Source: Limnomonas spitsbergensis
Lineage: Eukaryota; Chlorophyta; Chlorophyceae; Chlamydomonadales
Direction: 5' to 3'
Length of the DNA: 64,000 nt
NCBI GenBank assembly: GCA_037349105.1
Contig: JAYJMM010000112.1
Span: 5,664,501-5,728,500 of the forward strand
The notes beneath the pieces were generated by a model. That model saw only the letters and a program-made list of their open reading frames with translations. It was not told the DNA's origin and searched no databases. A program made the translations under genes and the position numbers. Shown piece by piece: positions 980-64,000 of the stretch. Every line of letters begins with the position of its first letter. Position 1 is the stretch's first letter.

Positions 980-3900
980 ATGTCGTCTCGACAGCGGCAG
1001 CAGCTACAGAAGCAGCAGCACCGTGCTCGATTCTGTGCGCGGCAGGGTAGTGACTGCACCTTTCTGTGCTCGGATTCCTCCTTCACGAGTCAAGCGCCCA
1101 TCTCCAACGCAGACTCCCCCAACGCTAGCGCCATCAACGCTCCCTCCTCTCCGCTCCCAAAATTCAAGCTCTCACCTTCAACCGGCCGCGTCAGCACCAA
1201 GGGTATATGCAGGTCTAACAAGCTCCACTTTGCCTCCCTGACCAGCTCGGGCCGCGGTGGTGCTTCCCACCCCCATCTGCTGCATGCCCCCATCACAGCT
1301 GCAGCCCTGGCCACTCCCGCCCGTTCCGCCTCCTCCTCATCCGCAGCCGCCCAGCAGCTACTGCTCCCCGGCGCCCGCTGGCTTCTCGCGCGTGTGGGCG
1401 CAGGCACCGCCGAACCTGCTGCTGAGGCCCGAACATGCATCAGAAGATCATCAGTGCTGCGGGGCAGCCCCCCACTGCTGCTACACCAGCAGTCAACGCA
1501 GCGACCAGCACCTGGGTCCTCAACAAGCAGAGCTGATCCAGCTGGAGCTGCAGCAGTGGCCGCTCGCAGCCTGGTCTCGGTGACAGGTGCCCGGAGCGCG
1601 GCCGCTGCTGCTGTCCCTGCTCAGGCCAGCAGGACACCGGAGGTGAAAGAGAAGGATCCATGGAACTGCGCCAAGCTGCTATTTTCAGGTACGTCCTCTC
1701 TGGGGGTCAAACTGTCAAAGTGGTACTGGGGGTGGTACTCCTGGTGGTACCGACATACAGATTGTACCGTAGAGGAATTCGAGCTGGGGTCGGGTCAGGA
1801 ACGCAGCAGAGGTTGGGGACAGGTGAGTGTACAGCAGACTGCTGTTCTCAGGTGCATGTCAGAGTTGAATTAGTCTGAAAAGTTCGCTCACGTAAAACTA
1901 GCTCCAGCAAGACCTGCCCCTCCCCCCCCTAGGGGCGCCCGCTTCAGGTGCGGAGGACTGCTTCAGGCGCCCCTCAAATCATTTCCAGAGTTCAGAAGGG
2001 AACCGCTTCTGAAAGACCCCACTTGACTGGAAAATCTCACCACCTCAGGAACCACCCTGTGAATCACAATTTGTAGTGCATGAGTGCATGACCCACTTGC
2101 CCACTCGTGATGTCGTCTCCACAGCCCTTGTGCCTGCACTCAAGGCACCATGCTGCGCTGTACCCTCACTGTACCCCCTCTCTACCCTTTCATCCACTTT
2201 GCTTGCACCAAGAGTTGCTCCCCTTCCACCCTGATGTGATCCTGCCTGGCCTGTTTCTGAACCCCGTTCCAGGTGCCATGACAGCTGTTGTGTCTCGAAC
2301 CTGCGTCGCCCCTCTGGAGCGCATCAAGATGGAGCTGGTGGTGAGACTGGGATAACACATTTTAAATTTAAATGTTTGAGCCCAAACCTGCGTCACCCCA
2401 CTCGAGCCCTTCAAAATAGAGCTGGTGGTCACAACCTGGTCAAAGCGAGTCCTGTGGAGTCAGATTTCTGAGTAGTGTTGGGCTCTAATCCTGTTTTTGA
2501 GTGGCGGGACGGAGATTGCTGAAATCAACCCTTTAGCCCTTAACCCTCCCCCGCAGCTCAAATATAGCAAGAGATCAGTTCCCAAACTTTTAATCCCTCC
2601 CCTGCAGCGCAAGCATGACATTCGATGACCCAATCAACCCTGCACCTTTTCGCATTCAAAACATAAAAGGGTGTCAGCTCCTCCATCTTGAACCCTGAAC
2701 CCTTTTGCAGCTTAAACAGAATACTGGATCCGCGCTCTCCACCGCCTCGGAAGTCTGGCGGACGGAAGGCGTTGCGGGCTTCTGGCGGGGAAACTTCGTT
2801 AACATCCTCCGGACTGCGCCATTCAAGGTACGGTGACGCCGCTGCGCTGGAAAGCCGTAGCTTGGGAGGAAGGATTGCCCTGTGCTGGTGTCCTCTGCCT
2901 ACAATTGTGCACTTCAAGGTATAACCCCTGGAATAACTGACATCTTCTGTTTACCTAGGGGGGTGCAGAGAGCCTAGGATGAGGTCTGAGGGATGGGGAG
3001 GCATCTGCTTGAGAGCGTGTCCCTACATCTTTAGAGTGTGTCCCTGCATCTTTTGTCCACACCTCTACCTGCTCCTTGAGGCCCTCACAGGCCACCTCAG
3101 CCCTCAACACTCCACACTGAGCACTCAGCTCCGCACCTATCGGGAGCTACTAGTGTCGAACCTTGATGTGGATGCTTAAAGCTTTTGCTCCCAATCCACC
3201 CCACTTGCACTTACATACATTGATATCTGTGTCCTGTGGTGTGATGCTGAAAGGCTTGTTGACCCCATGGGCCATCCTGGTTGCATGCTTGGTTGCCTTG
3301 GCCATCATATTCTTTCTTTTCCCCCTGTACCTGCCTGCCTGTTTGGATGCGCAGGCCATCATATAATCATATTCCTTTTTATACCCTGCCTGTCTGGATG
3401 CGCAGGCCATCATTTTCCTGTCCTTTGATATGTACCACAAGATGCTGGTGCGGATAGCGGGGGAGGAGTGCAACGCGGCAAGGTTCGCAGCAGGAGCATG
3501 TGCAGGTGGGTGGATGCAATGCATGGGTCTGAAATCTGAACAGTAGGGGAGGAGATGAACGCAGCGAGGCTCACGTTAGCAGCAAGGGCAACGGGCTTTG
3601 GCAAATGATGAGAGGTGCCAAGATTGGCTAGCTTCCACTGGATGTTACGCACGCGCGTGTTGGCTGCAGGCAGCATTGCATAACTGCATACTCGCAAGGC
3701 TGAGGTTTTTTTATCCTCCATCCTGTTTTGGCTGCAGGCATGACCGCCACGCTGGCATGCTTCCCGCTGGATGTTGCGCGCACGCGTCTGCTGGCCAAGG
3801 GAGGCGGCCCGCGGTACGGCGGACCGTTCAAGACGATCGCCGGCATTGCGCGGCATGAGGGCACGGGCGCACTATATGCGGGTGAGTGCAGGCAGGATTA

Positions 3901-6011
3901 TGATGCTTCCCTTGGCACATGAATACATGATGGTAGTAATCATTTTCTGGTGAATCGCGTACATGTGTTGTACCCCAGCCTGCAGCAGGATGCCTCAGGT
4001 GTGGCAAGCTATGCTGCTGGGGCATCTGGCTGCCGGCTGGTCCAGGTTACATCCACATTGGGCCTTTGGAGGGGGCAGGAAGGCCTGCCAATGGCGGCGC
4101 CTCGTAGCTGGGAAAACAGGCATTTCCTGATTTGCCATGTTGAAGCCTCAGCTCAGCCCGTCATTGCTCCCCTGTGGTTCCTCTTCACACATGTTATTCA
4201 AGCTCCCTAGCTCCGGATCCAGAATCCAGATATTGGAGGCTGCCATGTCCAATAAGGCCCCGTTGGTTTGCTAAAGGTTGTATGCCCGTCTCCCTCCTCC
4301 CCCACCCTTCAGGCTGCCTGCCTGCCCTGATTGGGATGGCCCCCGCCGGAGCCATCTTCTACGGCCTATTTGACATGCTCAAGCACCAGCACCTGGGACG
4401 CATGGCTACGAAGCGCGCGGCAAGCCCCTTCCCGCATTCCGCGGAGCCTCTGCAGCTGGAGACACACTGGACGCTCATTTACGGTGCCTTGGCAGGTAAG
4501 GCCTCAAAATACGTTCCACGGGTAAAAGCTCATCAAAGACTGCAAAAAAAGGAACCCTGAGGTCCACGGCCAGAGCGCAGTACTGGGGGAGCTGTGGCTG
4601 CAGGTGACGTGTCGAGGGGGGGTGATGTAGAGGTAAGGGCCGCACAAAGGCTTGCTGCACCCTAAGGCATGTGTTGTGGACTCTGATGACAAGTTGTAGA
4701 TAGTGATGATGACGAGTTGTGGTTTCTGATGTCGGAGTCCAAATGTGCGCACATCAGCTCGCCGGTAACTTGTTTCGCGCGGGTACCCTGTCCTCCACGT
4801 CAACAAGAGGGCCACCTCTGCACCCACCGCATGTGGAAGATTCAGATTTTAAGGTCGCTCCCTGATGTCCTTCTGTGACTCTCTCCCTGATGTCCCTCTG
4901 TGACTCTCTCTCTCTTTCTCTGAGCACATAATGATACCTTCTGGATTTCTGATTTGTGTTTTCGCCTGTTGCCCACCCCTCCATGCACACAGGTGTCTGC
5001 TCTGAGCTGGTGGTGTACCCGGTGAGTTGGTGGCGTTGGTTAGTTGATGGTTGGTTGGTTGGTGGTTAATGGTGTACCCGGTGAGTCTGAGTTGAGGGTC
5101 ATGCTCCATGTGGCATGTTGATAAGTTAATGCCTGGGGAAGGTTTGGGGTTATTGTTTGGGGAAACAGGGCGCCTGTATTTGGCTAAACCTTCAACCCTT
5201 TCCTCCCTCTATCTGCACCCTCCACACGTATCCTGAACCCTGCTCCCTCGCTGGCTGCATCCTTCACACTCAACCTGATACCTGCCCCCTTCCCACCCCC
5301 ACTTTCGCCCTAAACCCTAACCGCTGCCTCCTCTGTTTTTCCTTCAGCTGGAAGTTGTCCGCCGCCGGATTCAGGTCCAGAGCATGGCCATGGCGGCCGC
5401 TCGGCAATCGATGCGGCACCCCTCCGCGCTTACGGTCGGCGCGGCGGCGGCTGTGGCGCTCAACCGCGTCGGACCGCATCATGCTGCTGCCGCTGCTAGA
5501 GGCCTGAAAGGTATCTCGCAGACCTGCGCCGAGATTTGGCGGTCGGAGGGCGCCCGGGGCTTTTACAGCGGCATGGTGCCCAACATGATCCAGGTGAGAG
5601 GGAGGGGAAGAGGTGTGGAGATTCTGAGTGTGCAGGTCGGGCAGTTGGTTGGTGGGGGCAGAGGTGCGGAGGTTGTGAGTGCGGAGGTTGGACGGTTGGT
5701 TGGTGAGGGGAAGAGGTGCGGAGGTTGTGCGTGACGAGGGCACCTGGAGTTTTATCAGGGATAGGGTGCCCAACATAATCCAGTCAAGAATTGAACGGCT
5801 GGAAATGGAGCGTGAGGTATGGCGGACAGGGAGCAGTAGGGGGTGGGGAGGGTTTCCTAAGATTTGGCACGCATTTGAATTTGAATTTGAAATCTGCCGG
5901 GCCAGGATCCAACATGTGCTACCTCGAAATCAACCGCAGGTCCTCCCTGCCTCAGCGCTCAGCTACTACACGTACGACAGCCTTAAGCGCATGCTGAAAG
6001 CAGAGGCCTAA
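980..6011 (+). CDS. mitochondrial carrier family protein, adenine nucleotide transporter BT1/BTL-like (9 exons)
   Basis: Predicted 555-residue SLC25-type carrier that exchanges a metabolite, probably adenine nucleotides, across an organelle inner membrane. Exons by phase-matched GT/AG joins: 980-1688, 2273-2340, 2711-2827, 3406-3505, 3738-3881, 4313-4495, 4993-5021, 5348-5593, 5940-6011. Residues 1-235 are a long Ala/Ser/Arg-rich leader, likely an organelle targeting extension. Three carrier repeats follow, each with the signature Px[DE]xx[KR]: PLERIK (about 250-255), PLDVAR (341-346) and PLEVVR (450-455, split between exons 7 and 8). The segment GFWRGNFVNILRTAPFK in exon 3 is very close to plant BT1-like (BTL) carriers, which is why I prefer that subfamily. 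An Ala-rich insert lies in exon 8. The start is the first ATG of the open frame; the stop is TAA at 6009-6011. Substrate and organelle are inferred from family. Most introns contain decayed copies of the neighbouring exon ends (separate entry). Confidence 0.9.
1836..5783 (+). repeat. exon-edge copies in the carrier-gene introns
   Basis: Intronic sequences repeat the ends of the flanking exons. Donor-side copies: 1836-1850 (exon 1 end), 2385-2427 (exon 2 end, 87 bp after the original, still ending CTGGTG before GT), 2911-2918 (exon 3 end CTTCAAG before GT), about 3546-3590 (exon 4 end), 5071-5080 (exon 7 end GTGTACCCG, 59 bp downstream, again before GTGAGT) and about 5734-5783 (exon 8 end GTGCCCAACATAATCCAG). 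Acceptor-side copies: around 2556 and 2607 (before exon 3), about 3282-3320 and 3335-3370 (before exon 4; the second keeps TGGATGCGCAG then GCCATCAT) and about 3628-3673 (before exon 5, keeps the GGATGTT(A/G)CGC core). Similarity is read by eye. Confidence 0.75.
3985..4105 (+). mobile_element. dispersed GGCC-rich element, family A, copy 1
   Basis: About 120 bp inside carrier intron 5. It shares the order GTGTGGC(C)A, GCTGCT, GCCGGC, GGTCCAGGTT, CATTGGGCCTTT and CCTGCCAATGG with copies near 16700, 18945, 25610 (-), 44395, 45160 (-), 51175, 61150 (-) and 61440. No coding capacity. SINE- or MITE-like by size and dispersion; the class is not determined. Confidence 0.6.
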
Positions 6012-11889: not shown

Positions 11890-12624
11890 TTATCGGCCAC
11901 GTCCCCTGCCACGTCCCCTGCCGCGTCCTCTGCCGCGTCCAGCACCACCTACCAGCACCAGTGCCAGAAAATTGATGCTAACAAAGGATTTGCCCATGTG
12001 ACATGGGAGACGAAAATTTTGCTCAGGAACAGATGCATCAAATATCTAGTCTGTCCAGTGATGCAGTTCCAATTTCATGTCATAAGAGCGTGCTCAATCG
12101 GCGGCATAATCCATACTGCATCACACAGTTCATATTGTAAGCCTCCCAATGCCTCTTCCTGTCTTCCATGCCTCACCCGGTCTTGATGGCTTCGTGGGTC
12201 GCTGCTTTGGTTTGTCTATGTCCACGAGTAGAGTATCCAGGTTGAGGCTATCAGGTAAGATATAGTAGCGAATGTTGTTGCCCCTGACACTGAGGGCATC
12301 CAAGCTAATGGGGTTCTTTCCCTTGGCGATCAGCTTGACCGCTTTCAAGTGAGTATTCATGGCGATGTCCACACCTGTCGATCGAAGCAGCACGGGGCGC
12401 TAAGTGGTGGATCCATGCGCGTTCAGAAAAAGCAGAGGCGACACAGACCTGTGATCGTGCCCTGAATGACGCTTCCGTTCTTAAGCTCAATTTGTACAGT
12501 CTCGTTCGCCAATTTCATAAGAAACCTGCGAGAGAACACCGAGTTCAGATGCGATGCGGCTGATATAATGGATTGCGGCCCCAGATCACGAAGCCTTTAG
12601 TGCATACCTGACTAGCTTCACCAT
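11890..12624 (-). CDS. SmD1: small nuclear ribonucleoprotein Sm D1 (4 exons)
   Basis: Core spliceosomal Sm protein that joins the heptameric ring on U1, U2, U4 and U5 snRNAs. Exons on the minus strand: 12624-12608 (17 nt, MVKLV plus a split Arg), 12525-12449, 12374-12177 and 11948-11890; all phases agree and give 116 residues, close to the family's usual length. Sm1 is seen as [10 protein letters not shown] then [14 protein letters not shown]; Sm2 as [20 protein letters not shown]. The last exon encodes an uninterrupted run of Gly-Arg dipeptides followed by TAA, the methylated RG tail typical of SmD1. The start is set by the mini-exon whose split codon restores the RFLMKL of the family. Introns are 82, 74 and 228 nt and show no clear exon-edge copies, unlike the neighbouring genes. 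A CAG/GTGAGA just after the stop could be a donor in the 3' UTR. Confidence 0.93.
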
Positions 12625-15222: not shown

Positions 15223-15386
15223 GGCATACTTGTACGCCAGGTTTCAGTGTCAAACCCTGAACCCTACCCGTACAGCGTTTTGATGGTGTAGTACTGTTGT
15301 GCAAGGATCAAACCCTCAACCCTAGGCCCTGCTGGTACAGCTATTTGATGTTGTAGTACTGTAGTTTCAGGATCAACCCCCAAACC
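15223..15386 (-). repeat. tandem copies of the exostosin stop/3' UTR segment
   Basis: Beyond the stop codon the end of the coding region recurs twice (about 15308-15356 and 15248-15294). Each copy keeps TAC(A/C)A(A/C)CATCAAA and a GTAC..G block followed by AGGGTT. One copy still encodes a TAG at the equivalent place. Confidence 0.75.
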
Positions 15387-18300
15387 CTACCGGTACAACG
15401 ATTTGATGGTGTAGTTGTATGCCATGCCATTGTGAGCAGGCTCCCAAATGAAAGCTCGGTAGTGCTCTGCCATCTTCAGCCGCATCAAACGCTGCTCCTC
15501 TAGGGTGATGGACCTGCAAACACGTGTCCAGCTACAGTTCAGCTACAGTCCAGCTGCATTTCAGCTACAACACACCATCTACAGCAGCATCAGATGCTGC
15601 TCTTCTAGGGTGATGGACCTGCAATCAAATGTCCAGTTACATTTCAGCTACATTTCAGCTACAACACACCATCTGGAGCCACATCAGACACTCCTTTTTC
15701 ATGCTCATGGACCTGGGAAGGGCTCTGGCATACACTGTGCTTCTCGGGTGCCTCAGCTGCAATTCAACTACACCACGCCGTGTATTGCAATCCTGAACTC
15801 CTAGAGGCCAATGGACCTACAGCGAGCGCCGGTGTGATTGAGCAACTTTCATCACCTTCAATTAAACTGACTGGTTTTATTCAGCACCGCTTTTCATTTT
15901 TCAGACAGATGCCGGTACCAGGGCCCAAACAATATAAATTTATTTAGCTGCTTGCTGAATTGAGTTGAGGCCAGTCTGCACCCCTTCTCTTCCTGAAAGG
16001 CCGGGTCAGGACAAGGTCCTCCTCTCCAATCCTCTCTCCATTTAAATTCCCTTCCTTCTTACCTTCCTTCTGTTCCCCCAATCCCCCCTCCTGAATTCTC
16101 TGTCCTTCCTTCCTTCTCTCCCGAGACTCCTTCCCTCCCCTTCCACACCCTGCCTCCATCCCCCCTATCCCCCCTCCTGATGCTCTCTCTTTCCTTCCTT
16201 CTCTCCCGTGCCTCCCCTACCACACCCGGCCTCCATTCCCCCTATCCCCCCTCCTGAATTCTCTGTCCTTCCTTCCTTCTCTCCCGAGCCTCCTTCCCTC
16301 CCCTTCCACACCTGGCCTCCACTCCCCCTATCCCCCCTCCTGATTTCTCTGTCCTTCCTTCCTTCTCTCCCGTGCCTCCCCTTCCACACCCTGCCTTCAT
16401 TCCACCTGGCTTGATCTCACATCAGGAGAGGGTTGAGGCCCTTCCCACACACCTGGCTTGACCACCCTATCCTCTTCCAGTAAAACCTACAACTTAACCT
16501 TAATGGAACAAGAGCGGACATTCTCCTTCGAATCGGTACGAGGTCCTCCCTTAGTCCCTTTCAGACATGTCATCAACTTCACCTTCCTCTTGGTATCATT
16601 TTGCTTGGACTGAACACGGTGGAAGGCTGGCCGACCAGCCCTTGGTTTTAAGCACTATGTTTTCGTATCTCCGCTTCACCCCAGCCTAAAATGGAAGCCC
16701 CAGGTGTGGCCAGCTGAGCTGCTTGGGTCGCCGGCTGCTGGCCTGTCCAGGTTAGGTCCCCATCGGGCCTTTTGCTGAGGCAGGGCCGCCTGCCACTGGT
16801 GGCCTTGCAGCAAGGAACACGACTTGCATTATGAAGTCCTAGAGGTCCTACTTGGTCATATCTGCAGCTTGCGGTGAACCTCCATCAAAAAGTAAAACAA
16901 CCCCCAAGAGAATCATCCCAGACCACTTGTACCTTAGGATGGGTATGAGGTCAGGAATGTCATTCTTGGATATCCGCACCGCAATCTCGTCGTACGGAAT
17001 AATATCCTCAAACATCTGAAACACGTGATCCTGAAAAGGGAGGGGTGAGAGGGTGTGCACTGCTTGTATATTGGGTCACTGCGATGTTCGAAACACGTAG
17101 ACTTGAGGGGAAAAGGAAGTGTGGGAAGTGTGATAAGGAGTAAAATGCCACTGTAAATAATGCCGTTTTGCGTGTGAATCAGGTGGGGAGAATAATGTGC
17201 GTGTTGAGTCTCTGACCGACAAAAAATGTGTGTGACAGTCCACCCAACCCAATTGCATGTGTGAGAAGGTGTGGACTGTCAGTGCCCGGGGTGAATCAAA
17301 TATCTGAAGCGCATGGTTGCGGCTTGCGAGGCGAGGGGGGTGGAAGAGTGACATGTGTGCCATGTATGGGTCATGCATATGCATTGCCATTGTGGGTTGA
17401 GTCACTCCAACATCTGACCACAGAGGGGACATGAGAACAAGAAGTGTGGATGGTGTGATACATGTGAGATGCATATCCTGATGTTGTAAAATGCGAACTG
17501 TGGAAAATGTGATACGTGTGACAGCAGATGGTCAATGGGATGGGCCTCTGAAAATCTGAAGCACATGGTCATGAGGGAGCGGGGAAGATATACCAAACAG
17601 TGTGAGATGTGTGACTGTGTGAGGAGAAGGGGTGAGCTGCTAGTGGATCTGAGGTCGGCCGGTCAGGGAGAGGGGTGTGGAGGTAGGGTTCAGGGTGGCG
17701 AATGTTTGCTTTTGGTGATTACGGTTTAGGATTTAGGGTTCAGGATTTCAGTTCGATGTGCGTGCGTGTGCAATCCGTAATTCCAGGGTGCAGTGAATGA
17801 TTTCTCCTCCACACCTTTCACACCTTCTTCACACCCGATTACCTGGATTACGACTGGGATGCAGCCATGCACCATCGCGATGGAAAGCCGGATGCCAAAA
17901 CCGCCACCTGCCGGCAGGGAGGCATGAGGGGCGAGCATGAAGGGGTATACTCAATTTGTCACCAGCAGTCATAAGTCATAACCAACACAAACATAAGCAG
18001 ACACACACTTTGGTTTCCACTGCAGTGTACAATGAAGTGAAGTGAAGTATCAATGTACTTCTTATAATGGTGCCAGACGACCGTACTGCCAGAACAATTG
18101 TAAAAGTGGTTGAACACGTTACCCTACTGGCCTCAGGTGCCGAAAGGCCGACATTTGGATATGATCAGCTTCCCTCCCCCCCCCAGTTTTCTTGAGTTTC
18201 CCGTGTGTGTTCCTGAGCTACCAGTGAGGTGCGTGGTATAAGGTATTGGTGCGGTACAACTCTCGGCCCTGGTCTGTGAAGGCCGTTGATGTACATGACC

Positions 18301-21300
18301 TCATTGTCGTTCACACTTCACACTCCTGGTATGACCCCCCCCCCCCACACTCTCACCATGAGGAGCCAAGCAAAACTTGGTGGTGCGGTACAACTCCCGG
18401 TACTGGTGTGTCTGGCCATCAATAAAAAGTACATCGCTGTTTTCTGCCAGGTCACCAGTTTTGTTGAGATCCATGAAGAGCCTCTGTACCGCCTGCCGCA
18501 CTCCGCCACTGCGGTACAGTGCCAAAGAAGTATTAAGGGCCTGCCACAACAACGGTCATTGGGTTTGTTGAGGTCAGGGATGGTCCTCTGCACTGCCTGT
18601 TGCACACCACTACAGCAGTACGGACATCCCTTGTACCGCCTGTTGTACACCGCCACAGCAGTAAAATAACAGGGGATGGTCTAATATGTATGTCGCTGCT
18701 GTACTCACAATCAGCAGCGTTATTGAGATGTAAGAAGAGGTGATGTACGCCTTGGCTCACACCAGCACTACAACACAAGTTAAGGGAGGGGGTGAAGGGC
18801 CTGCCATGACGACCGTCATCTTCTTGTGCATACCTATATAGAGTTTCCGTACGGCCTGGCACACGCCCCCGCCTAGGTCCAATGGCAGGGAAAGAGCTAA
18901 GCGCTTGCCACAGCAGTGCTTGTTTTTACGACTCAGCTACAAGTCAGCTACACTCCGGCCACTGGCCAGAGACAACATTTGTGGCCACCCTTGCTGCTTT
19001 GGCCACAAATTTCAGGCCGGTCCAGGTTTGGTCTTGATTGGGCCTTCGGCAGCCTCTTGGCGACCTGCCAAAGTTATACTTGTAGCCGGAAAAAAAATCC
19101 CCACCGTGAATATCATGAATGCGTTTTCCCAGCTTTTAATCAGCCTTGCGCACGCCCCTGCTGTGGTACAGCGGCAGAGGGAACCCCACAGTGATGGCCA
19201 AAGCAGCCAGCGGCAGGACCCAATTATCTCCAACTACTCGCAGGAATAAATTGCTTGACGATCTCCCGCACCCGCCCACCCTCATGGGGCCTGCCTCACG
19301 AAAGTATGCGCTTCACACCCCCATCAAAAAAAAGGCGACTGAGGTTTGTTGCTTCCACAATTTTGGACACCTGCACCTGCCCGACGACCTGCCTGTAAAT
19401 GGAATCTTTGGCGCGCACCCCCCCGGCGAAGAAAAACAGATTGGTCCTCTCAGAGCTGACTCCGTTGTCCTTCAAAATCTGCATGGGCGGGACGCATGGA
19501 CGGGTTGTACGAGTGGGTTGCATGGGCGGGGTACATGAGCACCTTGCATGGGCGGGTTGTATAAGTGGGTTGCATGGGCGGGGTGCATGAGCACCTTGCA
19601 TGGGCGGGTTGCGTGTACATGGGCACCTTACATGGGCGAATTGTATGGGCGGGGTACATGGGCGGCTTGCATGGGCGGGTTGCATGGGCGAGGTACATGA
19701 GCACCTTGCATGCACGGGTTGTATAAGTGGGTTGCATGGGCGGGGTGCATGAGCACCTTGCATGGGAGGGTTGCATGTACATGGGCACCTTACATGGGCA
19801 AATTGTATGGGCGGGGTACATGGGCGGCTTGCATGGGCAGGTTGCGTAGGCGGCTTGCATGGGCGGGTTGCGTGTACATGGGCACCTTGCATGGGCGGGT
19901 TACGTGGGCGGGGGACATGGGCGGCTTGCATGGGCGGGGTACATAAGCGGCTTGCATGAACGGGGTACATGGGCAGGTTGTATGGACTGGAGGGCGGCTT
20001 ATTGATCTCGTGTATCCTCGTATCCCATGCTGTGGTACGGGGATGCAACCCCATCCCAGACCAGGTCTTCGACGCACCCATGCAGATGATCTAGATCTAG
20101 ATCTCACCTGCTCATAGATCACCTTTGCATCTTCGTATCCTATTTCGTTGTACGGGGAAGCCACCACATCCCTGGCTGGGTGGACGCATCCATGCAGAGG
20201 ATCTATATCTAGATCTCACCTGCTGATAGATCACTTTTGCATCTTCGTATCCTATTTCGTTGTACGGGGAAGCCACCACATCCCTGGCTGGGTGGACGCA
20301 TCCATGCAGAGGATCTATATCTAGATCTCACCTGCTCATAGATCACTTTTGCATCCTCATATCCAATGTCGTTGTACGGGGAAGCCACCACATCCCTGGC
20401 TGGGTGGACGCAGCCATGCAGAGGATCTAGAGGCTCTGGGTTCAATATCGATACGCCTTGCAGGCCCTGCAATTGGCATGGAAGAAATAGCAGGATCAAA
20501 AAGGGCAAATAAATACGCAAAAAGTAGCGTGTCCATCTCTTTAAGCGCTACATAATGCCGTCATCATGTGTGACCTGCAGTATAGAGGGACAAAGAGCAG
20601 AATCATAGAGGAGCAGTTGTGCCTGTCCTTCCCCCCAAAGCTACCTCCCTGCTCCCATCGCAATGCTCAAATGTCAACCAGAAAGCAAGAGCCAGCTTGC
20701 TCCCCTCCCCTGCCCCCCTGCTCCATGGCTCTCACCCCCCCCCCTGCTACCAATTCCAGCGCCCCCCCCTCCCATCACCACAGCACGTTGTTTAATATCA
20801 ACCAGAAAGCAAGAGCCAGCTCGCTCCCCCCCCCCCACAGCTCCCTCCCTCTCCCTGCTCTCCTCTCCCCCTATCTCCCCCGCTATCCCCACCCCTGTCC
20901 CCCTACACACAGCTCCCGCTCTCCCCGCTCCCCCCCCCGCTTCTCCTTTCCCCCTTCCTCCCACTTTCTAGCGCCCCCCCCCCCTCCCATCACCACATCA
21001 CCTCGTTCAATACCAACCAGAACGCAAGAGCCAGGTCGCCCCCCCCCCCCACAGCTCCCTCCCTCCCCCCCGCTCTCCCCTCCCTCTGTCCCCCCTCCCC
21101 CCCCCCTGTCCCCCTACACACAGCTCCTGCTCTCCCCGCCCCCCCCCCCCCGCTTCTCCTTTCCCCCTTCCTCCCACTTTCTAGCGCCCCCCCCCCCTCC
21201 CATCACCACCTTGTTTAAATGGTAACCAAAGTGCACCAACTTTATGACGGATGCGGCTTTGGGGGGCGCGTAGCATGCCCCTTTATCACCTGTAACAAGC

Positions 21301-24300
21301 AGCCAGCATAAGGGCAACAAACAGGTCAGTCGGGATAAAAGGCCAACATCAAAAAACAAATCACGCACATAATGGTGGAGGCGGCTTTGGGGGGCGCGTA
21401 GCATGCACCTAAAACATTGCAACAAGGCCAACATACCGTACGACCACATAAACTTCACTCAAAATTAATTGACTTTTGGCCTGCGCGGACATGGCTGCGC
21501 GGACATGGCTGCGCGCTAATAATAATAGTTCAAAACTCGCTGCTGTGCGAAGTTGAAGTCAGGTTTTCGTCGCCATTGCTGCGCGGGGTGTCAGTCAGGT
21601 GTCTGTTGTGACGGCTGTGCAGCAATAAATTAATGTAAGTGCACAGATTTTGTCGTTGCGCGCAAGGGGAGGGGGGCAAAAAAAAGCCAGGGACCCCATG
21701 CCCCCCGGCCCCAAAACGAGGACCCAACGAGCCCCCCGCCCCCCCCCCACCCCCGCCTCTGGAACCCATTGAAATTTAAATATCTCAGTCGAAATTCAAA
21801 TTACAGGGCATGTAAGGGGCGTTTTTTATTAGCTTATTTCAAGGCGCTTCTACTGGTATTTTTTAATTCGTTAGGGTGATGACATGCCAACAGTCTTTGA
21901 ATCGCGTGGTATCGCGGAAGCTGCCATCCGTGCCATGCACTCCCTCCCATTCTGGTGGCGTCTGACGTTTGCAGGGCCAGCGGATTTGAGGACCTTGCCC
22001 CAACGACCACAAGTGATCAATTCATTCATGATCCACCCGACCCACACTACCATGTGCTGCGTATAATACAGCTCTTTCTAAGGATGACTCAGCTGGTTTC
22101 AGGGTGTGTCCAATGGAGCCAAACCCTCAGTGTGGGGGGTCATGTGGTAATTCAATCAACATTTTAGGATGTAAATGGACTCATGTTGGCAAGGAGAACA
22201 CAGAGGTGCCGCTGCCAGTCTCAACAGACCTCTAGAAAAAAAAATACGAAGTTTGGGGGAAAAAACAAATGTTGGATATCTTGGGATCCCCCCCCCCACT
22301 TGGCTCCCCCATATCTCCCACCCCCCTGGGCCAAAAACATTTCAAAAACAGCTATGGAACGCTCTCGTCAAGCTCTACACAAAAGGGGCATGGGGTTGAT
22401 TTTTTTGGTTTTGCCCCCCCCCCTCGGTTGCGCGGCCGTTTTTCAATTATGCTTCGCTGCACGACGAAAAACAAATTACCTATATTTTGCTGCGCAGACC
22501 CCTTGTGATTTTACGGTAAGGGCAAAATGTCAGTCGCTATGACAGGCCGACATCGCCTAGTTTAGGGTTTAAACTTAGGGTTTAGGAAACCCTTCACCCT
22601 ACAAAACACCTGCACAATAATTGATGCAGCTTCCTACACAACAAGGTCAGCCTAACAAAGAGGTCAGTCACGATATAAGGCGGAGGTGTCTAAGTGCACC
22701 AATAGCTGCCTGATGCATCCAAATGCGGGTGGCGCGTAGCATTCCCCTTCATGACCTTCACCAAGGGCAACATATCAAAGAGGGAAGTCGGGATAAGAGG
22801 CCGACATATTGAATTGCACCAAAAGCTGTTTGATGGATTCAGATGCGGATGGTGCATAATGCCCTTTTATGACCTGCGACGAGGGTAACAGAACAATGAG
22901 TCAGTCAGGATAGATGTCAAAATGCATTCATAGCTGTGTGATGGATCCAAATGGGGGGGGTGCGTAACATCCCTTTAATCACCCACAATGAGGGCAGCAG
23001 AACAAACAGGTCATTAGGGGTAAGGCGCCGAAATATTGAAGTGCACCAATAGCTGTGTGATGGATCCAAATGGGGGGGGTGCGTAACATCCCTTTAATCA
23101 CCCACAATGAGGGCAGCAGAACAAAGGGTTCAGTCGGGCTACGAGGTCCACACCCGGGATACGAAGCCAGTGCAACAGAGGGGTCAGGCTGAATTAAATT
23201 AAAGTAAAGGGGCTGAGTTTAAGGGGCTGAATTAAATTAAAGGGGCTGGATTGAAGGGCTGAGTTTAAGGGGCTGAATTAAATCGGGCTGAATTACATTT
23301 AAGGGGCTGGTTTGAAGGGGTGAGGGTCACGGCAGGGGGATGAATTAAATACGTTTTATTTGGGTGGAGGTCGTTTAATTCTTACTTACGGGTCCAGGTA
23401 TTTCCAGGCGTGCGGTAAAGTAAATCTCTCACTACCCTGATCTCTCTATTCAAATGCGCCCACCCCCCCCCTCCCGGTTTGCCCGCGCCTCACCCGTGAA
23501 CCACATGAAGTGGTCCTTGCCTTGATTCCGGTTGAAGAAGGGGAACGTCTGATTGATGTAACTGGGGGGGCACGAAGGCAGCAGGGGGGAGGTATGAGAT
23601 AGAGGGCAGGAGGGCAGGGGGGGAGGGTATGAGATAGAGGGCAGGAGGGAGGGGGGGGGATATGAGATAGAGGGCAGGAGGGAGGGGGGGGGATATGAGA
23701 TAGAGGGCAGGAGGGAGGGGGGGGGGATATGAGATAGAGGGCAGGAGGGAGGGGGGGGGGTATGAGATAGAGGGCAGGAGGGAGGGGGGGGGGATATGAG
23801 ATAGAGGGCAGGAGGGAAGGGGGGGGGGGAGATATGAGATATAGTGCAGGAGGGAAGGGGGGGGGGATATCAGATATAGTGCAGGAGGGAAGGGGGGGGG
23901 GATATGAGATAGAGGGCAGGAGGGAAGGGGGGGGGGATATCAGATATAGTGCAGGAGGGAAGGGGGGGGGGATATGAGATATAGTGCAGGAGTGGGGGGT
24001 ATGAGATATAGTGCAGGAGGGAAGGGGTGGGGGATATGAGATATTGTGCAGGAGGGGGGGGGGTATGAGATAGAGGGCAGGAGGGAAGGGGGGGGAGGGT
24101 ATGAGATAGAGGGCAGGAGGGAAGGGGGGGGGATATGAGATAGAGGGCAGGAGGGAAGGGGGGGGGGTATGAGATAGAGGGCAGGAGGGGAGAGGGGGGG
24201 GTATGAGATAGAGGGCAGGAGGGCAGGGGGGGTGGGGGATATGAGATAGAGGGCAGGAGGGGGGGGTATGAGATAGAGGGCATGAGGGCATGAGGGGGGG

Positions 24301-27300
24301 GGGAGGTATGAGATAGAGGGCATGAGGGCAGGAGGGAAGGGGGGGGATATGAGATAGAGAGCAGGAGGGCAGGAGGGGGGGATATATGAGATTTAGTGCA
24401 GAAGGGCAGGGGGGGGGGGGATATGAGATAGAGAGCAGGAGGGCAGGGGGGGGGGGAGATATGAGATGATGTGCAGGATGGCAGGAGGGGGGGAGATATG
24501 AGATTTAGTGCAGAAGGGCAGGGGGGGGGGGATATGAGATAGAGAGCAGGAGGGCAGGGGGGGGGGGATATGAGATAGAGAGCAGGAGGGCAGGGGGGGG
24601 GAGATATGAGATGATGTGCGGGAGGGCAGGAGGGAAATACAAGTTAAGGAGCAGGGGGGAATATGAAATTGATTGCAGAAGAGTGCACATGGGCAGGAGA
24701 GGGGGGGAGGATGAGATAGAGTGCGGGAGGGCAGGAGGGCAGGAGGGTAAACGAGGGCAGGGGGAGGGGGAATGTGATATAGAGCGCGGGAGGGCAGGAG
24801 GGCAGGAGGGTAAAAGAGGGCAGGGGAGGGAGGATGTGATATGGAGCGCGGGAGGGAAGGAGGTCAGGAGGGTAAAAGAGGGCAGGGGGAGGGGGGATGT
24901 GATATAGAACGCGGGTGGGCAGGAGTCCAAGCTGCCAAACAAAAGGGGGGTCCGGAAAGGGAACACAATCTGTGGCCGCACTTAAAAGCAGACCCAAAGC
25001 CATTTGGTCACAACTATCAATCTATTCGGTCCAAAGGTCCAAACCCATCAAGTTCATATCCGTATGCTTCAGCTCGAATCCTTGCTGACATTTCAGCTCG
25101 AATCCTTGCTGACATTTCAGCTCGAATCCTTGCTGACATTTCAGCATGTCCTTATCCATTTGTGTGAACTCCAGCCAATCCTAATCTGCAGCGATTTAGC
25201 TGGGTTAACAAACCGCGACCTTCCAAACCCATTAAGGACACTTTTTGTAGTTCCAAATCTCTATTCTGAGAACTGAAGTGTGACCTGTGGGGATGGATTG
25301 TGCATGGCCATCCAATAATCACACTAAAACTCGCCACAGTCACACTACCGGTACTATTTGAACAGCTGCCCGACAGGCAGGCTCTGGTTGCCAGTTCATT
25401 TCGCACACAAGAAAGAAAGCTACGCCCTGTGGGGGGCGTGAGAGTTCAGGAAACAGCGCAGCCTGGGCCGATTCTCACTCTAATACACGGACGAGGTGTG
25501 GACCTGGCTCTCCGGTGTTGCTGCTGTACGAATACGTGAAAGCGGGGATGTAGAACAGGTTGGCCTGCATATCAAACAACGAAATGGCAACAGTTTGCTG
25601 AGATGAGTCGAGCGCAACCGCCAAAGGCCCGATTAGGACCAAAGCTGGACCGGCTTACACCGACTGGTGGCCAAGGCAGCAAGGCTGGCCACGAATGGGG
25701 CCTCCGGCCAGCGACCGGAGTGTAGCTGACATGTACCTGAGTCACAAGAAATAACTCCTGCTAGTGTACCCTCAATTCTAAACCCTTGTCCTTTAACACC
25801 CTTCCAGGGATCCTCCGCTCTTTAGTCAAGCCTACATTCATCCCACCCCCCAAGAGGCTCCCTTGTTCTCAGTTGGGCCTAAGTCTTGAACCCACCTACC
25901 TTCACCCACGTCTCACACATCCCTAAACCCACCTCCCAAGGATTCTCTGTCCTGAGCCGGGCCTACACCCTAAACCCACCTCCCAAGGATTCTCCGTCCT
26001 GAGCCGCGCCTACACCCTAAACCCGCCTCCCAAGGATTCTCCGTCCTAAGTCGGGCCTACAACCTAGACCCACCTCCCAAGGATTCTCTGTCCTGAGCCG
26101 GGCCTACACCCTAAACCCACCTCCCAAGGATTCTCCGTCCTGAGCCGGGCCTACACCCTAAACCCGCCTCCCAAGGATTCTCTGCCCTGAGCCGGGCCTA
26201 CACCCTAAACGTACCTCCCAAGGATTCTCTGCCCTGAGCCGGGCCTACACCCTAAACCCACCTCCCAAGGATTCTCTGCCCTGAGCCGGGCCTACACCCT
26301 AAACCTACCTCCCAAGGATTCTCTGCCCTGAGCCGGGCCTACACCCTAAACCCACCTCCCAAGGATTCTCTGCCCTGAGCCGGGCCTACACCCTAAACCC
26401 ACCTCCCAAGGATTCTCTGTCCTGAGCCGGGCCTACACCCTAAACCCACCTCCCAAGGATTCTCTGTCCTGAGCCGGGCCTACACCCTAAACCCACCTCC
26501 CAGGGATTCTCTGCCCTGAGCCGGGCCTACACCCTAAACCCACCTCCCAAGGATTCTCCGTCCTAAGCCGGGCCTACACCCTAAACCCACCTCCCAAGGA
26601 TTCTCTGTCCTGAGCCGGGCCTACACCCTAAACCCACCTCCCAAGGATTCTCCGTCCTGAGCCGGGCCTACACCCTAAACCCACCTCCCAAGGATTCTCT
26701 GCCCTGAGCCGGGCCTACACCCTAAATCCACCTCCCAGGGATTCTCTGTCCTGAGCCGGGCCTACACCCTAAACCCACCTCCCAAGGATTCTCTGTCCTG
26801 AGCCGGGCCTACACCCTAAACCCACCTCCCAAGGATTCTCTGTCCTGAGCCGGGCCTACACCCTAAACCCACCTCCCAAGGATTCTCTGCCCTGAGCCGG
26901 GCCTACACCCTAAATCCACCTCCCAGGGATTCTCTGTCCTGAGCCGGGCCTACACCCTAAACCCACCTCCCAAGGATTCTCTGTCCTGAGCCGGGCCTAC
27001 ACCCTAAACCCACCTCCCAAGGATTCTCTGTCCTGAGCCGGGCCTACACCCTAAACCCACCTCCCAAGGATTCTCCGTCCTGAGCCGGGCCTACACCCTA
27101 AACCCGCCTCCCAAGGATTCTCCGTCCTGAGCCGGGCCTTCACCCTAAACCCACCTCCCAAGGATTCTCTGTCCTGAGCCGGGCCTACACCCTAAACCCA
27201 CCTCCCAAGGATTCTCTGTCCTGAGCCGGGCCTACACCCTAAACCCACCTCCCAAGGATTCTCTGTCCTGAGCCGGGCCTACACCCTAAACCCACCTCCC

Positions 27301-42300: not shown

Positions 42301-45300
42301 CTGATATCTCCCCCCTTCATTATACACAGAGTGATGCACTGATATCTCCCCCCTTCATTATACACAGAGGGATGCACTGATATCTCCCCCCTTCATTATA
42401 CACAGAGTGATGCACTGATATCTCCCCCCCTTCATTATACACAGAGTGATGCACTGATATCTCCCCCCCTTCATTATGCACAGAGGGATGCACTGATATC
42501 TCCCCCCCTTCATTATGCACAGAGTGATGCACTGATATCTCCCCCCCTTCATTATACACAGAGTGATGCACTGATATCTCCCCCCTTCATTATACACAGA
42601 GTGATGCACTGATATCTCCCCCCCCTTCATTATGCACAGAGTGATGCACTGATATCTCCCCCCTTCATTATGCACAGAGTGATGCACTGATATCTCCCCC
42701 CCTTCATTATACACAGAGTGATGCACTGATATCTCCCCCCTTCATTATACACAGAGTGATGCACTGATATCTCCCCCCTTCATTATACACAGAGTGATGC
42801 ACTGATATCTCCCCCCCTTCATTATGCACAGAGGGATGCACTGATATCTCCCCCCCTTCATTATACACAGAGTGATGCACTGATATCTCCCCCCCTTCAT
42901 TATGCACAGAGTGATGCACTGATATCTCCCCCCCTTCATTATGCACAGAGGGATGCACTGATATCTCCCCCCTTCATTATACACAGAGTGATGCACTGAT
43001 ATCTCCCCCCCTTCATTATGCACAGAGTGATGCACTGATATCTCCCCCCTTCATTATACACAGAGTGATGCACTGATATCTCCCCCCCTTCATTATGCAC
43101 AGAGGGATGCACTCACTGATATCTCCCCCCTTCATTATACACAGAGTGATGCACTGATATCTCCCCCCTTCATTATGCACAGAGGGATGCACTGATATCT
43201 CCCCCCTTCATTATGCACAGAGGGATGCACTGATATCTCCCCCCTTCATTATGCACAGAGGGATGCACTGATATCTCCCCCCCTTCATTATGCACAGAGG
43301 GATGCACTGATATCGCCCCCTTCAATTTTTTGCTGACTGCGACCAACCTTTATGCACGAGCCTCGTCGGCTGCAGCTTCCGGGACACTCTGATATCGGCA
43401 TCGGCTTGCATCCGGTATGACCCCAAATGTTCAGCGTGGTGCGGCCATCAGCCTCAGAGACAGGCCTGCACCCATTCAAACGGAAAACAGGCCGGCTCAA
43501 GACAGGGGACAAGAGGGAAAGGGGGGGGAGGAGGGGGCAAGAACGGGGGAAGGGGCGGGGGCAAGAGAGAAAGAGTGGGCGGGGGCAAGAAGGGTGGGGG
43601 GGGGGGTAAAAGGAAGGGGGATGTGAACAAGAGGAGCAGTGAGGGGGAGGAGGTAGGAAAAACCAAACACCCAGGAGAAAAGCATTAGGAAGGCGCCCAT
43701 ACCTCGTCTTAAGTTCCTTCCAGTATCCTGTGCCATTACAGAGGGTTCCTAAGGCGACCCCCCTGGCCCACACCTTTCTCTCAAGTCGCTTCTTATCCTG
43801 TGCCATTAAAAATCGCAGCTAAAGCAAACCCCTTGTCCCTACATTGTCTTGATGTCTCAGCCTATCCTGAGCCATTAAAGCAGGGCAGCGAAGACGACCA
43901 CCTTTTGCCCCCACCTTGTCTTTAGGTCGCTACTGATCCTGTGCCATAACAAAAGGGCCCTCCTCCACCCCTCTGCCCCCACCTTGTCTCGGAATCGTTA
44001 CTGATCCTGTGCCATAACAAAAGGGCCCTCCTCCACCCCTCTGCCCCCACCTTGTTTTTAAGTCGTTACTGATCCTGTGCCATGTCACGCCGGCTGCGCC
44101 CTTAGCCGGCATGTCTGACCACTGCTCTGCCGCAGTCTTGCCTTCCAGCTCAAAACAACGAGCCTGTAGGATGAGCACGAAGGATCAGGGGAAGAGGAAA
44201 CCCAGACTTGCTGCAAGTGGCCTTTGCCATACTTTTCATCAAACATGGCGCTCAGAACCGGCATGTCTGACCACTGCTTAACCGCTTGCTTGCCCTCCAA
44301 TTGAAGACACAGCACCTAGCACAAACAGCTCGAAGAATCAGATGGGGGTGAGACCCAGACTCGCTGCAAGTGGCCTTTGCCGCAGATTCCATTATGTGGC
44401 TCAGCCACAGTCCAGCAGCTCTTCAGCCACAGTTGACAGTTCAGCTACCTCCTGACTTGTAGCTGAAGGCCCCACATGGCACAGCCCTCAGCCATGCTGC
44501 TTGCTTAAGGTTTGGCCCCTACAGGCATCGGGCCTTTGGCGGCCGGCTGAAGTGGGCTGGTGGCCCAAAGACGAAATACAGTCCCTCACTGGCATCAAAC
44601 TGACAACTCGACGATGATAAGGGCATCCTCATGGTGTAGGGTTTAGGCCAGTACTGTACCGATTATGGTTTGCACGGTAGCTGAACTATGTAGCTGACTT
44701 TCAGTCGTTGTAATTTCAAGGCAAATTCAGCTACTTTTACCAGTAAGACACCGTAATTATTATCACTATCTCTGAATTACGTCGGCATTGCACAACACTG
44801 GGTCAGAGGCCCCAACCTCATGAAGCAGCACCAAGAGCTCTTACGCTGCCTATGGATCTCTGATAGATTGCAATCTGGCAGGTTGAGAGCGCAAGATCCG
44901 GCTTGCAGCTGAAGAACTCCCAGGCCTGCTTGTAGCATTCGCAGCCTGCAGAGGCATGCGGTGGGTTGTTCACACTTTTGTATAGCAGATAGAACTCCCG
45001 GGTCTTACAGAAAGCCACTCAGCATTCGTAGCCAGCAGTGGCAGCAAATAAGTAGACGCTCACACTTTTGAGCAGCCTGTCACGTTACTTCAGGGAGCAT
45101 GGCAATCAGTGTTCATTTCAGTGTGCGCCAGACGACTTGTTGGGGGCTGCCGGGTGGGCAATACTGGACAAATGAAACCAAAGCTTGACCGGCCTACGGC
45201 CGGCGGCCCAAGCAGCAGGGCTTGCTGCACCAGGCCCCCCCGGCCGTAGGCCGTGATGTAACTGAAGTGCAGCTAAAGCGCACTAAAATAAACACTGATA

Positions 45301-47289: not shown

Positions 47290-47500
47290 TGTGTTACTGT
47301 GTTCACCATGAAGACTTAAGGTTGTTTGCAAAGATGCAACAAGAACAACGATGGGCTCATTGGGCATGGTCCTAGACGTACTCTCCAGCTGTGGGGACAG
47401 TGGGGAACAAATAGGGTAGGGAACGAATAGCATTTTGCTGCATACTGCCTGTTACAGTGGCGAAGGGGGAAAGGATGAGAGACCAAATTGTGCTCACCAT
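47290..47500. repeat. duplicated exon-edge-like segment
   Basis: The block ATGGTCCT(G/A)GA(T/C)GT(G/A)CTCTCCAGC and the following GGACAGTGGGGAACA / GGACGACGCAGAACA recur about 130 bp apart. A third partial copy (GATGAGAGACCAAA, GCTCACCATTTACC) lies near 47480. Confidence 0.7.
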
Positions 47501-51174: not shown

Positions 51175-51335
51175 GACAGCTACTTGTCAACTACACCCCG
51201 ACCGTCTTTCGGAGGGCCTAGGTGTGGCCAGCTATGCTGCATGGACCGCCGTCGATCCAGGTTGGGTGTCCGTCAGGCCTTTTGCGGCGGCAGGGCGGCC
51301 TGCCAATGGTCTCGAGACCTGCCAATGGTGGCCTC
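51175..51335 (+). mobile_element. dispersed GGCC-rich element, family A, copy 7
   Basis: GACAGCTACTTGTCAACTAC leads in; then AGGTGTGGCCAGCTATGCTG, GATCCAGGTTGGGTGTCCGT and CAGGCCTTTTGCGG. Trailing CTGCCAATGG words are repeated three times. Confidence 0.65.
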
Positions 51336-54609: not shown

Positions 54610-54630
54610 ACCTCATCTGGTGTCTCACAT

Positions 54631-54779: not shown

Positions 54780-55087
54780 ACCCAAGAACAAGAAGAAGAA
54801 GAAGAAAGAAGAAGAAGAAGAAGAAGAAGAAAGAAGAAGAAGAAGAAGAAGAAGAAGAAGAAGAAGAAGAAGAAGAAGAAGAAGAAGAAGAAGAAGAAGA
54901 AGAAGAAGAAGAAGAAGAAGAAGAAGAAGAAGAAGAAGAAGAAGAAGAAGAAGAAGAAGAAGAAGAAGAAGAAGAAGAAGAAGAAGAAGAAGAAGAAGAA
55001 GAAGAAGAAGAAGAAGAAGAAGAAGAAGAAGAAGAAGAAGAAGAAGAAGAAGAAGAAGAAGAAGAAGAAGAAGAAGAAGAAGAAGAA
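54780..55087. repeat. (GAA)n microsatellite, about 300 bp
   Basis: Nearly pure GAA/AAG triplets on the plus strand with two AAAG interruptions near the left end. Translated frames (poly-Arg, poly-Glu, poly-Ser) are artefacts. Confidence 0.97.
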
Positions 55088-61275: not shown

Positions 61276-61439
61276 ACAGTGATATTCCGTGTGCAGTCCG
61301 TCAGAGTTCAGGCGTGATGTAGGTGCTTACAGTTATTCGGTTGTACACTAGGGCGGTGGCAGAAAACTCTGTGCCCTGCCCCTCTCGTACTCCCCACCCT
61401 CTCTGCCTGAACTACATTGTTTAATTCAGGATGATTTAC

Positions 61440-62072: not shown

Positions 62073-62314
62073 ATGTACGGCCAAGGTCCTACGCATTATG
62101 GCGTCCACCAACATAGCAGCCCACACCAGCATGCGCCACCGCAACAACAGCAGTGGCATGGACAAGCAGCGCAGCAGCAACAATACAACCAAGGGAACCA
62201 TCAGACCGAGCAGCCGCAGTGGCTGGCGCCAGCGCCGCCACAACCGCATGGCATGATGCATCCGGGCTCCCAGCCCAACCAGCAGCAACAATATCATACG
62301 CAGCCGCCGCCACT

Positions 62315-62346
<32 letters not shown>

Positions 62347-64000
62347 CGCAAAAGCAGCAGCAGCAGTGTCAGCTTAATATCCCCGTATGGCTCCAAGAGG
62401 AGCCGCAACAGCATGGCAACAGCCCCATGCAACAGCTGCACCACCAGCGGAGCACGCAGTACTTCTCACCAAAGTACAGTTCGCAGCCCCAGCAGCAGTA
62501 CCAGCAGCAAACGCCGCCGCCACCGCCGCAGCAGCCCCTGCAGCAGCAGCGACAGCAACAGCCCCAGCAGCAGCAGCAGCAGCAGCAGCAGCCCCAACAG
62601 CCTCTACAGCCCCAGCCCCAGTCCCAGGCGGGCATCGGCGACATGCTGCAGCATTACCAGCAACATCATCAGCAGCCGCCAGCCAGCCAGCCGCAGCCGC
62701 AAAGCTTCAATATGTGGCCAGTTTGGAAGCAGCAACAGCAGCAACAGGGAATACAGCACCCGCCGCCACAGCAGCAGCGGCAACAGCAGCCGCAAACACC
62801 GGGGCAGCAACAACCGCAGCCGCAGCAGCAGGCGCAACGCTTCTTGACGGGGAACACGCCAGCAGGGACGCCCCATGGCCACCATGCTGCCATGCAGGTA
62901 GTGCGCAGATCCCATATGCAGGGCTTAGATCCTGCTATACCGTAGATTTGATTTGCCTCCCCCCTCGTAAGAAAAAGTGTATTTTAATAATGATGCCCTC
63001 AGGGCAGATTACCCAAACTCTTACTTTCTGACTGAAATTGGCGTTCGACAATCGATAATGAGTATACGGTACTGTATTCATGGATCCCTCAACCCAAAAT
63101 AACGTTGATTATAAAAATTACGAGGGAAGGCATAACAAATCTACAGTCTGGCAGGATGTGGAGGGCTCATATAGTTATATCCCTAGAGGATAACGCGTTT
63201 GAGCCTTGGCGACAAGCGCTGCACTCTAGATTGGGCAGAACAAGTTGAGGGTCGTGGTTCAGGGTCCTTAAAACCTAAGCTGGACACCGAATTGCATGAT
63301 CTGTGTGCAGCATGCTTATGGTTGGGGTTTAAAACCCTAAACAAGAAGCAGAGCACTTGACGCTGAGGTGGATGTTTTGTGCACACTGCGCCCTCCCCCT
63401 ACCCCACCCCTCTTTTAAACCTTAAGTGGCCTTTATCCTTGACCATTAATCCCTCAACCTCTCCTTAATTGTGCACACACACAATTACTGGACTTTGAAT
63501 CTCAAACCCTGAAACCTGAATCCTGACTCCTGAATCCTGACTCCCCAATCCTGACTCTCCAACCCCGATCCCCAACCCCGTTCCGCAGACTCTCAACCCT
63601 CAATCCCAAACCTCAAACCCCAAACCTCGACTCCCACCCCTCAACCCTGAACCCTTAAGGGACAACCGACACAGCAGGCGGGCGCAAGCGTGGCCGCCCA
63701 GAGGTCGGAGTACAATCAGCAGTACCCTCCCCCACAGCCCTTCAGCAGCGGCCAGCCTGGCAGTACAGGCCTGCCGCCGGGCGTGGTGCAGTACAGTACA
63801 TCGAGGCAGTACGGAGCGGTACCAGGAGCTCCGCAGCAGCAGCAAGCAGCTCCTCATGCGGCTGGCGCGTACCGGCCACCGATCCACATAGACATCCCTG
63901 GCAGGGGTGCATATGGAGGGGTGAGTCGCGCATGGAGAGGCGCAGAAGCGCAGGTGGAGGGTTGAATTGCATATGGAGGGGTGAGGCGCATGTGGTGGGG
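62073..64000 (+). CDS. Gln-rich low-complexity protein, 3' end outside the window
   Basis: First exon 62073-62897 (275 codons from MYGQGPTHYG) ends CATGCAG/GTAGTG in phase 0; second exon 63678-63920 (81 codons) starts after CACAGCAG and ends in phase 0 before GTGAGT. The gene then leaves the window. The protein is dominated by CAG/CAA-encoded Gln runs with Pro and His, interspersed with non-repetitive segments (NIPVWLQEE, GIGDMLQHYQ, FNMWPVWKQ, PPIHIDIPGRGAYGG). Such regions are common in transcription co-regulators and RNA-binding proteins; no folded domain is visible, so no function is assigned. The other strand is also open in places because of composition. After exon 2 its end is copied: GCATATGGAGGGGTGAG recurs 50 bp later. 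An upstream exon before 62073 is possible. Confidence 0.55.
63470..63660. repeat. C-rich ACCCTGAAT-type simple repeat
   Basis: Imperfect CCTGA(A/C)TCC, CAACCCC and CAAACCC words in the intron of the Gln-rich gene, ending near the exon 2 acceptor at 63677. Confidence 0.7.

Follow-up and report, generated by a model that had tools for sequence, protein, structure and literature searches.

Many introns sampled from the green alga Limnomonas spitsbergensis contain local copies of the edges of their own exons, with the splice sites copied along. We examined this in a window of 64,000 nucleotides (positions 5,664,501 to 5,728,500 of contig JAYJMM010000112.1, forward strand; contig C112 of the 124 that make up the 260-Mb genome), chiefly in a mitochondrial carrier gene and an exostosin gene, and in kinesin genes elsewhere in the genome. 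The copies are local and lie in direct orientation only, they are no more frequent at exon edges than elsewhere, they are scarce within the ordinary exons tested, and in one young pair of paralogous genes an array is present in only one of the two. The explanation that we consider likely is a widespread tandem duplication that is blind to splice sites, the products of which are filtered by selection on exons.

Exon-edge copies in three sets of genes

For each edge, a query of at most 100 nt of exon with 6 nt of intron was aligned to the intron of that edge. Random segments of equal length from the 200 kb beside the window, with repeats kept in, served as the null (500 draws for the carrier and exostosin genes, 300 for the kinesin genes), and p≤0.01 was the cut-off. 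The pooled sample comprises 50 introns: eight from the carrier gene, 17 from the exostosin gene, and 25 from kinesin genes. The kinesin set was built from 66 of 139 motor-domain profile matches, namely those lying in 20 regions, which gave 46 neighbouring exon pairs; 19 pairs were discarded because of profile gaps or overlaps and two because no consistent frame was obtained, leaving 25 intron models at 18 loci, among which two weak ones (kin10 and kin23) were kept. Over the 264 kb formed by the window and the adjacent 200 kb, the GC content is 0.55 and 78,922 of 264,000 bases lie in arrays reported by Tandem Repeats Finder (TRF); codon-based gene finding was weak (0.17 nats per codon).

Copies of at least one edge were detected in 26 of the 50 introns (30 of 100 edges). 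The kinesin introns, all outside the window, contribute eight of 25 introns and 11 of 50 edges, where 0.5 edges would be expected. With a uniform 60-bp design applied to 97 edges, after exclusion of three edges with exons shorter than 50 nt, 30 edges matched their own intron, none matched an intron of another gene (one random partner intron per edge), and one matched its own intron reverse-complemented. The copy signal is local, direct-oriented, and gene-specific. An earlier note on this stretch had proposed the comparison between own and foreign introns as a check on its claim that exon edges are copied together with their splice sites, at all grades of decay; the claim held, with copies at about 60–100% identity, and it extends to the kinesin introns. 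The significant copies are located on seven contigs (C112, C123, C103, C76, C35, C109, and C124).

Counting every copy, we found them at 31 of 102 edges (16 donor and 15 acceptor edges, with more than one copy at 19), a count that takes in one kinesin intron added by hand, the array of which was known beforehand. A tally of the aligned spans shows that 25 of the 30 significant alignments reach the exon border or stop one base short of it. In 21 of the 30, the match continues beyond the junction by 2 nt or more of the six intron bases in the query, which in most cases places the break away from the splice motif. Where several copies of an edge differ, the nearest is the best in 13 of 18 cases, which is a trend only (p=0.096). 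Both edges are copied in only four of the 50 introns; contrary to the repeated copying of both junctions envisaged in the earlier note, most introns with copies have a single copied edge. Intron length correlates with the duplicated fraction (rho=0.66, p=2e-7, n=50). None of 25 exon-internal 60-mers from the carrier and exostosin genes was copied within its own exon.

The exostosin gene (GT47/EGF) lies on the minus strand from 46295 to 15046, with 18 exons (46295-45782, 45630-45547, 44945-44845, 44163-44051, 43465-43348, 36902-36720, 34818-34708, 33340-33254, 25564-25479, 23561-23494, 21289-21210, 20466-20332, 19478-19393, 18508-18357, 17907-17843, 17030-16933, 15513-15391, and 15082-15046) and 17 introns. 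This model predicts a single open frame of 746 aa with no internal stop. An earlier model of 16 exons and 698 aa matched Chlamydomonas eustigma P0122 (57% over 95%) and contained PF03016; alignment with five homologues then revealed a gap and a longer C terminus and led to the addition of exons 11 and 18, both of which were compared with that alignment by eye only. The five aligned homologues span the exon joins with no residues matching the intron copies, one of them (P0126) bearing an insertion of its own, and no close paralogue was present among the matches listed. Exon 13 needs a GC donor (window position 19392) to keep the frame, and the following intron is likely of the GC-AG type.

Fourteen of the 17 exostosin introns have a significant edge copy, seven on the donor side (after exons 4, 6, 7, 8, 12, 14, and 17), seven on the acceptor side (before exons 3, 4, 6, 11, 14, 16, and 17), and none on both, which agrees with the at least 13 of 16 introns counted in the earlier note. 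After exon 8, a 47-bp unit composed of the exon end AGAGAATCCTTGGGAG and the donor GTGGGTTTAGGG is repeated about 157 times over 7.3 kb (25921..33276; TRF; p=0.002), and after exon 6, which ends in GACTGCTCTAGATCTAAG, about 25 units of 45 bp (35626..36737; TRF; p=0.002; 24 copies detected) combine that end, altered at one base, with the donor GTGGGC and some of the intron. Both arrays reach into their exons. The 112-bp units formed by the exon 12 end and its donor (20071..20429; TRF), previously described as near-identical, are present at 94%, 94%, and 72% identity. Further donor-side copies include a 68-71-bp array of the exon 4 end with its donor (43695..44083; four or five copies in two runs, identity 0.89 to 0.71), decayed copies of the exon 7 end with its donor (34250..34700; three or four detected in two runs, identity 0.68-0.75), and two copies of the exon 17 3′ end (15241..15365). 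On the acceptor side, five copies of the 5′ part of exon 11 were detected (21350..23152), four of them at 1.4-1.8 kb from the exon, along with four copies of the 5′ part of exon 14 (18540..18905) and two of the 5′ end of exon 17 (15574..15715), one at an offset of 105 bp with 90% identity and a second with 72%. All of these features lie on the minus strand, like the gene.

Two other arrays are found in the introns of this gene. An 18-bp unit repeated 33 times in intron 7 (33647-34243) starts directly after the last decayed copy of exon 7 and is seemingly all intronic. A 38-bp satellite of 109 units in intron 5 (39125-43324), which by eye resembles exon 5 with a deletion, gave p=0.535 and is not claimed as a copy; its start lies no more than about 30 bp from the donor of exon 5.

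The carrier gene (980..6011, plus strand; PF00153) has nine exons (980-1688, 2273-2340, 2711-2827, 3406-3505, 3738-3881, 4313-4495, 4993-5021, 5348-5593, and 5940-6011). Its homologues include a metagenome protein (66%) and proteins from Volvox reticuliferus (47% over 95%), MMETSP1391 (60% over 74%), and C. eustigma (63% over 67%). The named matches of the carrier and exostosin proteins come from Chlamydomonas, Volvox, and other green algae. Edge copying is present in four of its eight introns (four donor edges and one acceptor edge), with a fifth intron reaching p=0.022; the at least six of eight introns reported in the earlier note were an overstatement. Intron 2 contains a copy of the exon 2 3′ end with its donor GT (2376..2429; offset 88, 80% identity; p=0.001 and p=0.002 in two runs), intron 4 contains copies of the exon 4 3′ end (3546..3590) and of the 5′ part of exon 5 (3617..3671), each at 71% identity, intron 7 holds a 17-bp exact copy of the exon 7 end and donor (5070..5086), and intron 8 a copy of the exon 8 3′ end at 70% identity (5712..5783), all on the plus strand.

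Among the kinesin genes, two young paralogues located 15 kb apart on contig C124, L042 and L043, allow the fate of introns to be compared with that of exons. Over two exons, they differ at nine of 405 nt, and six of 64 four-fold sites have changed. At exon 4, L042 has nine units of 88/89 bp, the exon's own counted, each made of 49 nt of exon end and about 40 nt of intron, whereas L043 has a single unit. For introns 2 and 3, the two genes are no more alike than background (p=0.34 and 0.32). Much of the intron sequence of these paralogues has turned over in the time that it took their silent sites to reach a divergence of about one tenth. We read the difference at exon 4 as growth in one lineage; loss of the array in L043 would also be conceivable. 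The donor of this exon is GT in L043 and GC in L042, where the intron is likely of the GC-AG type.

Splice junctions compared with the surrounding DNA

Exon edges and DNA elsewhere were found to be copied at the same rate. Local copies were detected for 30 of 97 edges and for 131 of 400 random points in the flank (Fisher p=0.81). Nor do the edges exceed the intron interiors, in which 119 of 287 tiles had a local copy (mean over 44 introns 0.31); as interior tiles decay on both sides, this comparison, if anything, favours the edges. Across the 22 introns of at least 600 bp, the coverage by self-duplicated sequence goes from 0.37 to 0.48 inward from the donor and from 0.42 to 0.60 inward from the acceptor, and the fixed intron sets show no peak of coverage at the junctions, the profile being flat or slightly rising inward. 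The equal-rate test corrects the tempting idea of the junction as a seed; the main role of exons is to render a general process visible. As a plausible mechanism, the earlier note had inferred slippage or unequal exchange seeded at the junctions, or a repair process linked to splicing or R-loops; neither the seeding nor the link is supported by the equal rates and the flat coverage.

Tandem duplication blind to splice sites, with selection acting on exons, would account for these observations as follows. Short stretches, mostly in units of tens of base pairs, would be duplicated at a high rate throughout the genome, regardless of splice sites. Events within exons would mostly be purged by selection, and events within introns would be neutral. 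Those crossing a border would be tolerated, as the first donor or the last acceptor could still give the same mRNA and the extra copy would become intron. The exon, held constant by selection, would act as a preserved reference, so that even old copies in the intron could still be recognised against it. Some units would go on to form long arrays of uniform repeats, with slippage or unequal exchange as the presumed cause, and intron length would be largely a by-product. The molecular step and the choice of splice site are among the parts of this scheme that we infer.

Several observations weigh against splice-blind duplication or limit the tests that favour it. Taken alone, the carrier gene shows the opposite pattern, with copies at five of 14 edges and in one of 27 interior tiles; we put this edge excess down to age, both intron copies having decayed. 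The random flank points were drawn from unannotated DNA. Low-complexity DNA raises the coverage measure artificially (0.16-0.22 in order-3 shuffles, 0.25-0.37 in genomic windows), and a rise in coverage from 0.26 to 0.77 away from the junctions was dropped as evidence, being mostly an effect of long introns, which alone fill the far bins. The non-splice control comprises only two edges of each kind, with one of two stop edges and neither of two start edges positive. A copy lies downstream of the true exostosin stop edge (15046; p=0.006); a putative stop near 15387 was dropped as a control because the homologues show a further exon, so the copies there are donor copies. Microhomology at breakpoints was sought at 91 two-copy loci, many of which lie within arrays, and gave no interpretable pattern. 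The coding run of a Gln-rich gene near the end of the window (62120-62840) holds local repeats, with 10 of 25 scan tiles at z≥4, all within the run, so exons are not wholly copy-free. In the kinesin pair, 96 columns of intron 1 still align at 73% (p=0.002) and intron 4 shows marginal similarity (p=0.038); the likeness of the exons could also come from gene conversion, which would exaggerate their contrast with the introns. Finally, donor dinucleotides in the copies are intact slightly more often (0.93 per edge) than the identity of the flanking sequence would predict (0.76 per edge; 29 of the 31 copied edges used). This excess could hint at selection, and both the alignment and the homogenisation of arrays push the figure up.

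The carrier pattern would also fit duplication seeded at the splice junctions themselves, through breaks linked to splicing or R-loops or through AGGT microhomology, as would the 45-bp, 47-bp, 112-bp, and 213-bp arrays, which straddle or abut junctions. However, the overall edge rate equals that of the random flank and does not rise above that of intron interiors, the fixed intron sets have no junction peak, and most significant alignments (21 of 30) pass the junction by at least 2 nt, and we regard junction seeding as improbable. We give even less credence to the idea that selection keeps the copies as spare splice sites, decoys, or alternative exons. The retention of donors would be expected in that case, but acceptors are intact close to expectation (0.74 versus 0.68 per edge, again for 29 of 31 copied edges), the copies are partial exons, many of them at 65-75% identity, the five exostosin homologues cross the exon joins without the copies, and edges are copied no more commonly than random DNA.

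Slightly further down in our estimation is intron birth of the Rogers type, in which introns would have arisen via duplication of exon sequence containing AGGT. The motif AG/GT is frequent in the copies, and gain of this type is documented (PMC3443670, PMC4974935), yet 21 of the 30 copied blocks hold intron sequence past the junction, which means that the intron existed already, and few introns have both edges copied. The least credible possibility, an assembly artefact or mobile introner elements, could draw on the repeat-rich genome, in which long arrays may have been assembled with incorrect copy numbers, but it is at odds with copies that span about 60-100% identity, with the absence of matches to another gene's intron for all 97 edges (one random partner each), and with the spread of significant copies over seven contigs.

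Other features of the window and its flank

A plus-strand open frame at 46768-47273, called without a homology check, has a copy of its donor edge at 47348..47417 (plus strand; p=0.002). For the Gln-rich gene, a tile scan of 62.0-63.5 kb detected no local copy of the first donor; the second donor edge (about 63921) is, by eye, near-exactly repeated 60 bp downstream (63909..64000, plus strand), and this repeat also appears as a row in the TRF output. A minus-strand gene at 11893-12640 has an RG-rich tail and putatively encodes the core splicing protein SmD1.

A dispersed element of about 100-130 bp occurs at 3972-4098, 16678-16803, and 51211-51310, the three sequences being 72-76% alike. Long open frames on the minus strand at 52827-54609, which by eye resemble a retroelement reverse transcriptase, adjoin a 300-bp AAG run (54784-55087). 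Two stretches of the right 200-kb flank look coding and lie at a spacing of about 17.6 kb (225134-232656 and 243418-250244 in coordinates of the joined 264 kb); their second frames are equal in length (3963 bases) and their first frames unequal, and they are perhaps a duplicated mobile element.

Relation to known forms of intron change

The earlier note knew of no description of growth of this kind, whereas a bird example is already on record (Hron et al. 2026, PMC12954441). On chicken dot chromosomes, lateral parts of exons are copied through introns together with their splice sites, a phenomenon termed exon or sequence stuttering. In the portions of that article used here, a strict screen identified stuttering in 190 of 5,572 dot-chromosome introns, 190 of the 236 positive introns lay on dot chromosomes, intergenic DNA of these chromosomes was also affected, and no other vertebrates were reported to show it except gerbils, for which data were not shown there.

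The algal copies resemble the chicken case, as far as those portions of the article go, in their local, imperfect tandem expansion within introns, in units of tens to hundreds of bases, in their source at the exon border with the donor or acceptor copied along, in the intact exons, and in the involvement of intergenic DNA. The imperfect copies are local to their introns, as the comparison with other genes shows (0 of 97), and the copied part reaches the exon border at 25 of 30 edges. The coding exons are unaltered, given the 0 of 25 internal tiles and an open frame over the 18 exostosin exons, with the Gln-rich run as the exception. No concentration on small, GC-rich dot chromosomes was found in the loci sampled: copies occur on the seven contigs named above, and the GC content of the 264 kb is 0.55. 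We take the concentration on dot chromosomes to be the context of the bird case. Unlike in chicken, the host is an alga. The 26 positive introns out of 50 come from a test of higher sensitivity, which precludes a direct comparison of rates. The chicken study documented differences in intron length between individuals, whereas one genome is used here, with the kinesin pair as a proxy.

Intron gain of the Rogers type, as presented in the parts consulted of a study of the potato RdRp gene (PMC4974935) and of a review (PMC3443670), is alike in that a tandem duplication crosses or contains splice-site sequence; the potato duplication crosses an intron-exon boundary (PMC4974935). The difference is that such events make new introns, whereas those seen here add length to introns already present and leave the reading frame intact. 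Derivation of both splice sites from a single duplicated exon segment is not what we observed, with both edges copied in four of 50 introns and 21 of 30 blocks running into the intron. Human introns derived from tandem arrays with splice sites were reportedly described by Zhuo et al. in 2007 as a source of new alternative introns. Those arrays share with the present ones the occurrence of splice sites in tandem arrays within genes and reportedly differ in not being a general lengthening. Among the top-ranked results in the open-access literature, no report of exon-edge copying in algae turned up. What is new here is the host, a green alga, the occurrence on seven contigs, the presence in about half of 50 sampled introns, and the test against targeting of junctions.

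From a biological perspective, these results carry a newly named form of instability from vertebrates into a green alga, and the question of what sets the length of an intron becomes measurable. Natural introns with dozens of copied donors also offer a test bed for how the spliceosome chooses among them. We can suggest only tentatively, and with somewhat less than even confidence, that blind local stuttering might be the main mode of growth of introns, and perhaps of the genome, in this algal lineage, possibly because of a weakening of some replication or repair function that ordinarily keeps short tandem duplications in check. Splicing would then cope with up to about 157 copies of a donor, apparently by using the first. 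The same instability would have arisen independently on the dot chromosomes of birds, and stuttering might accordingly be a general genomic state and not a peculiarity of birds.

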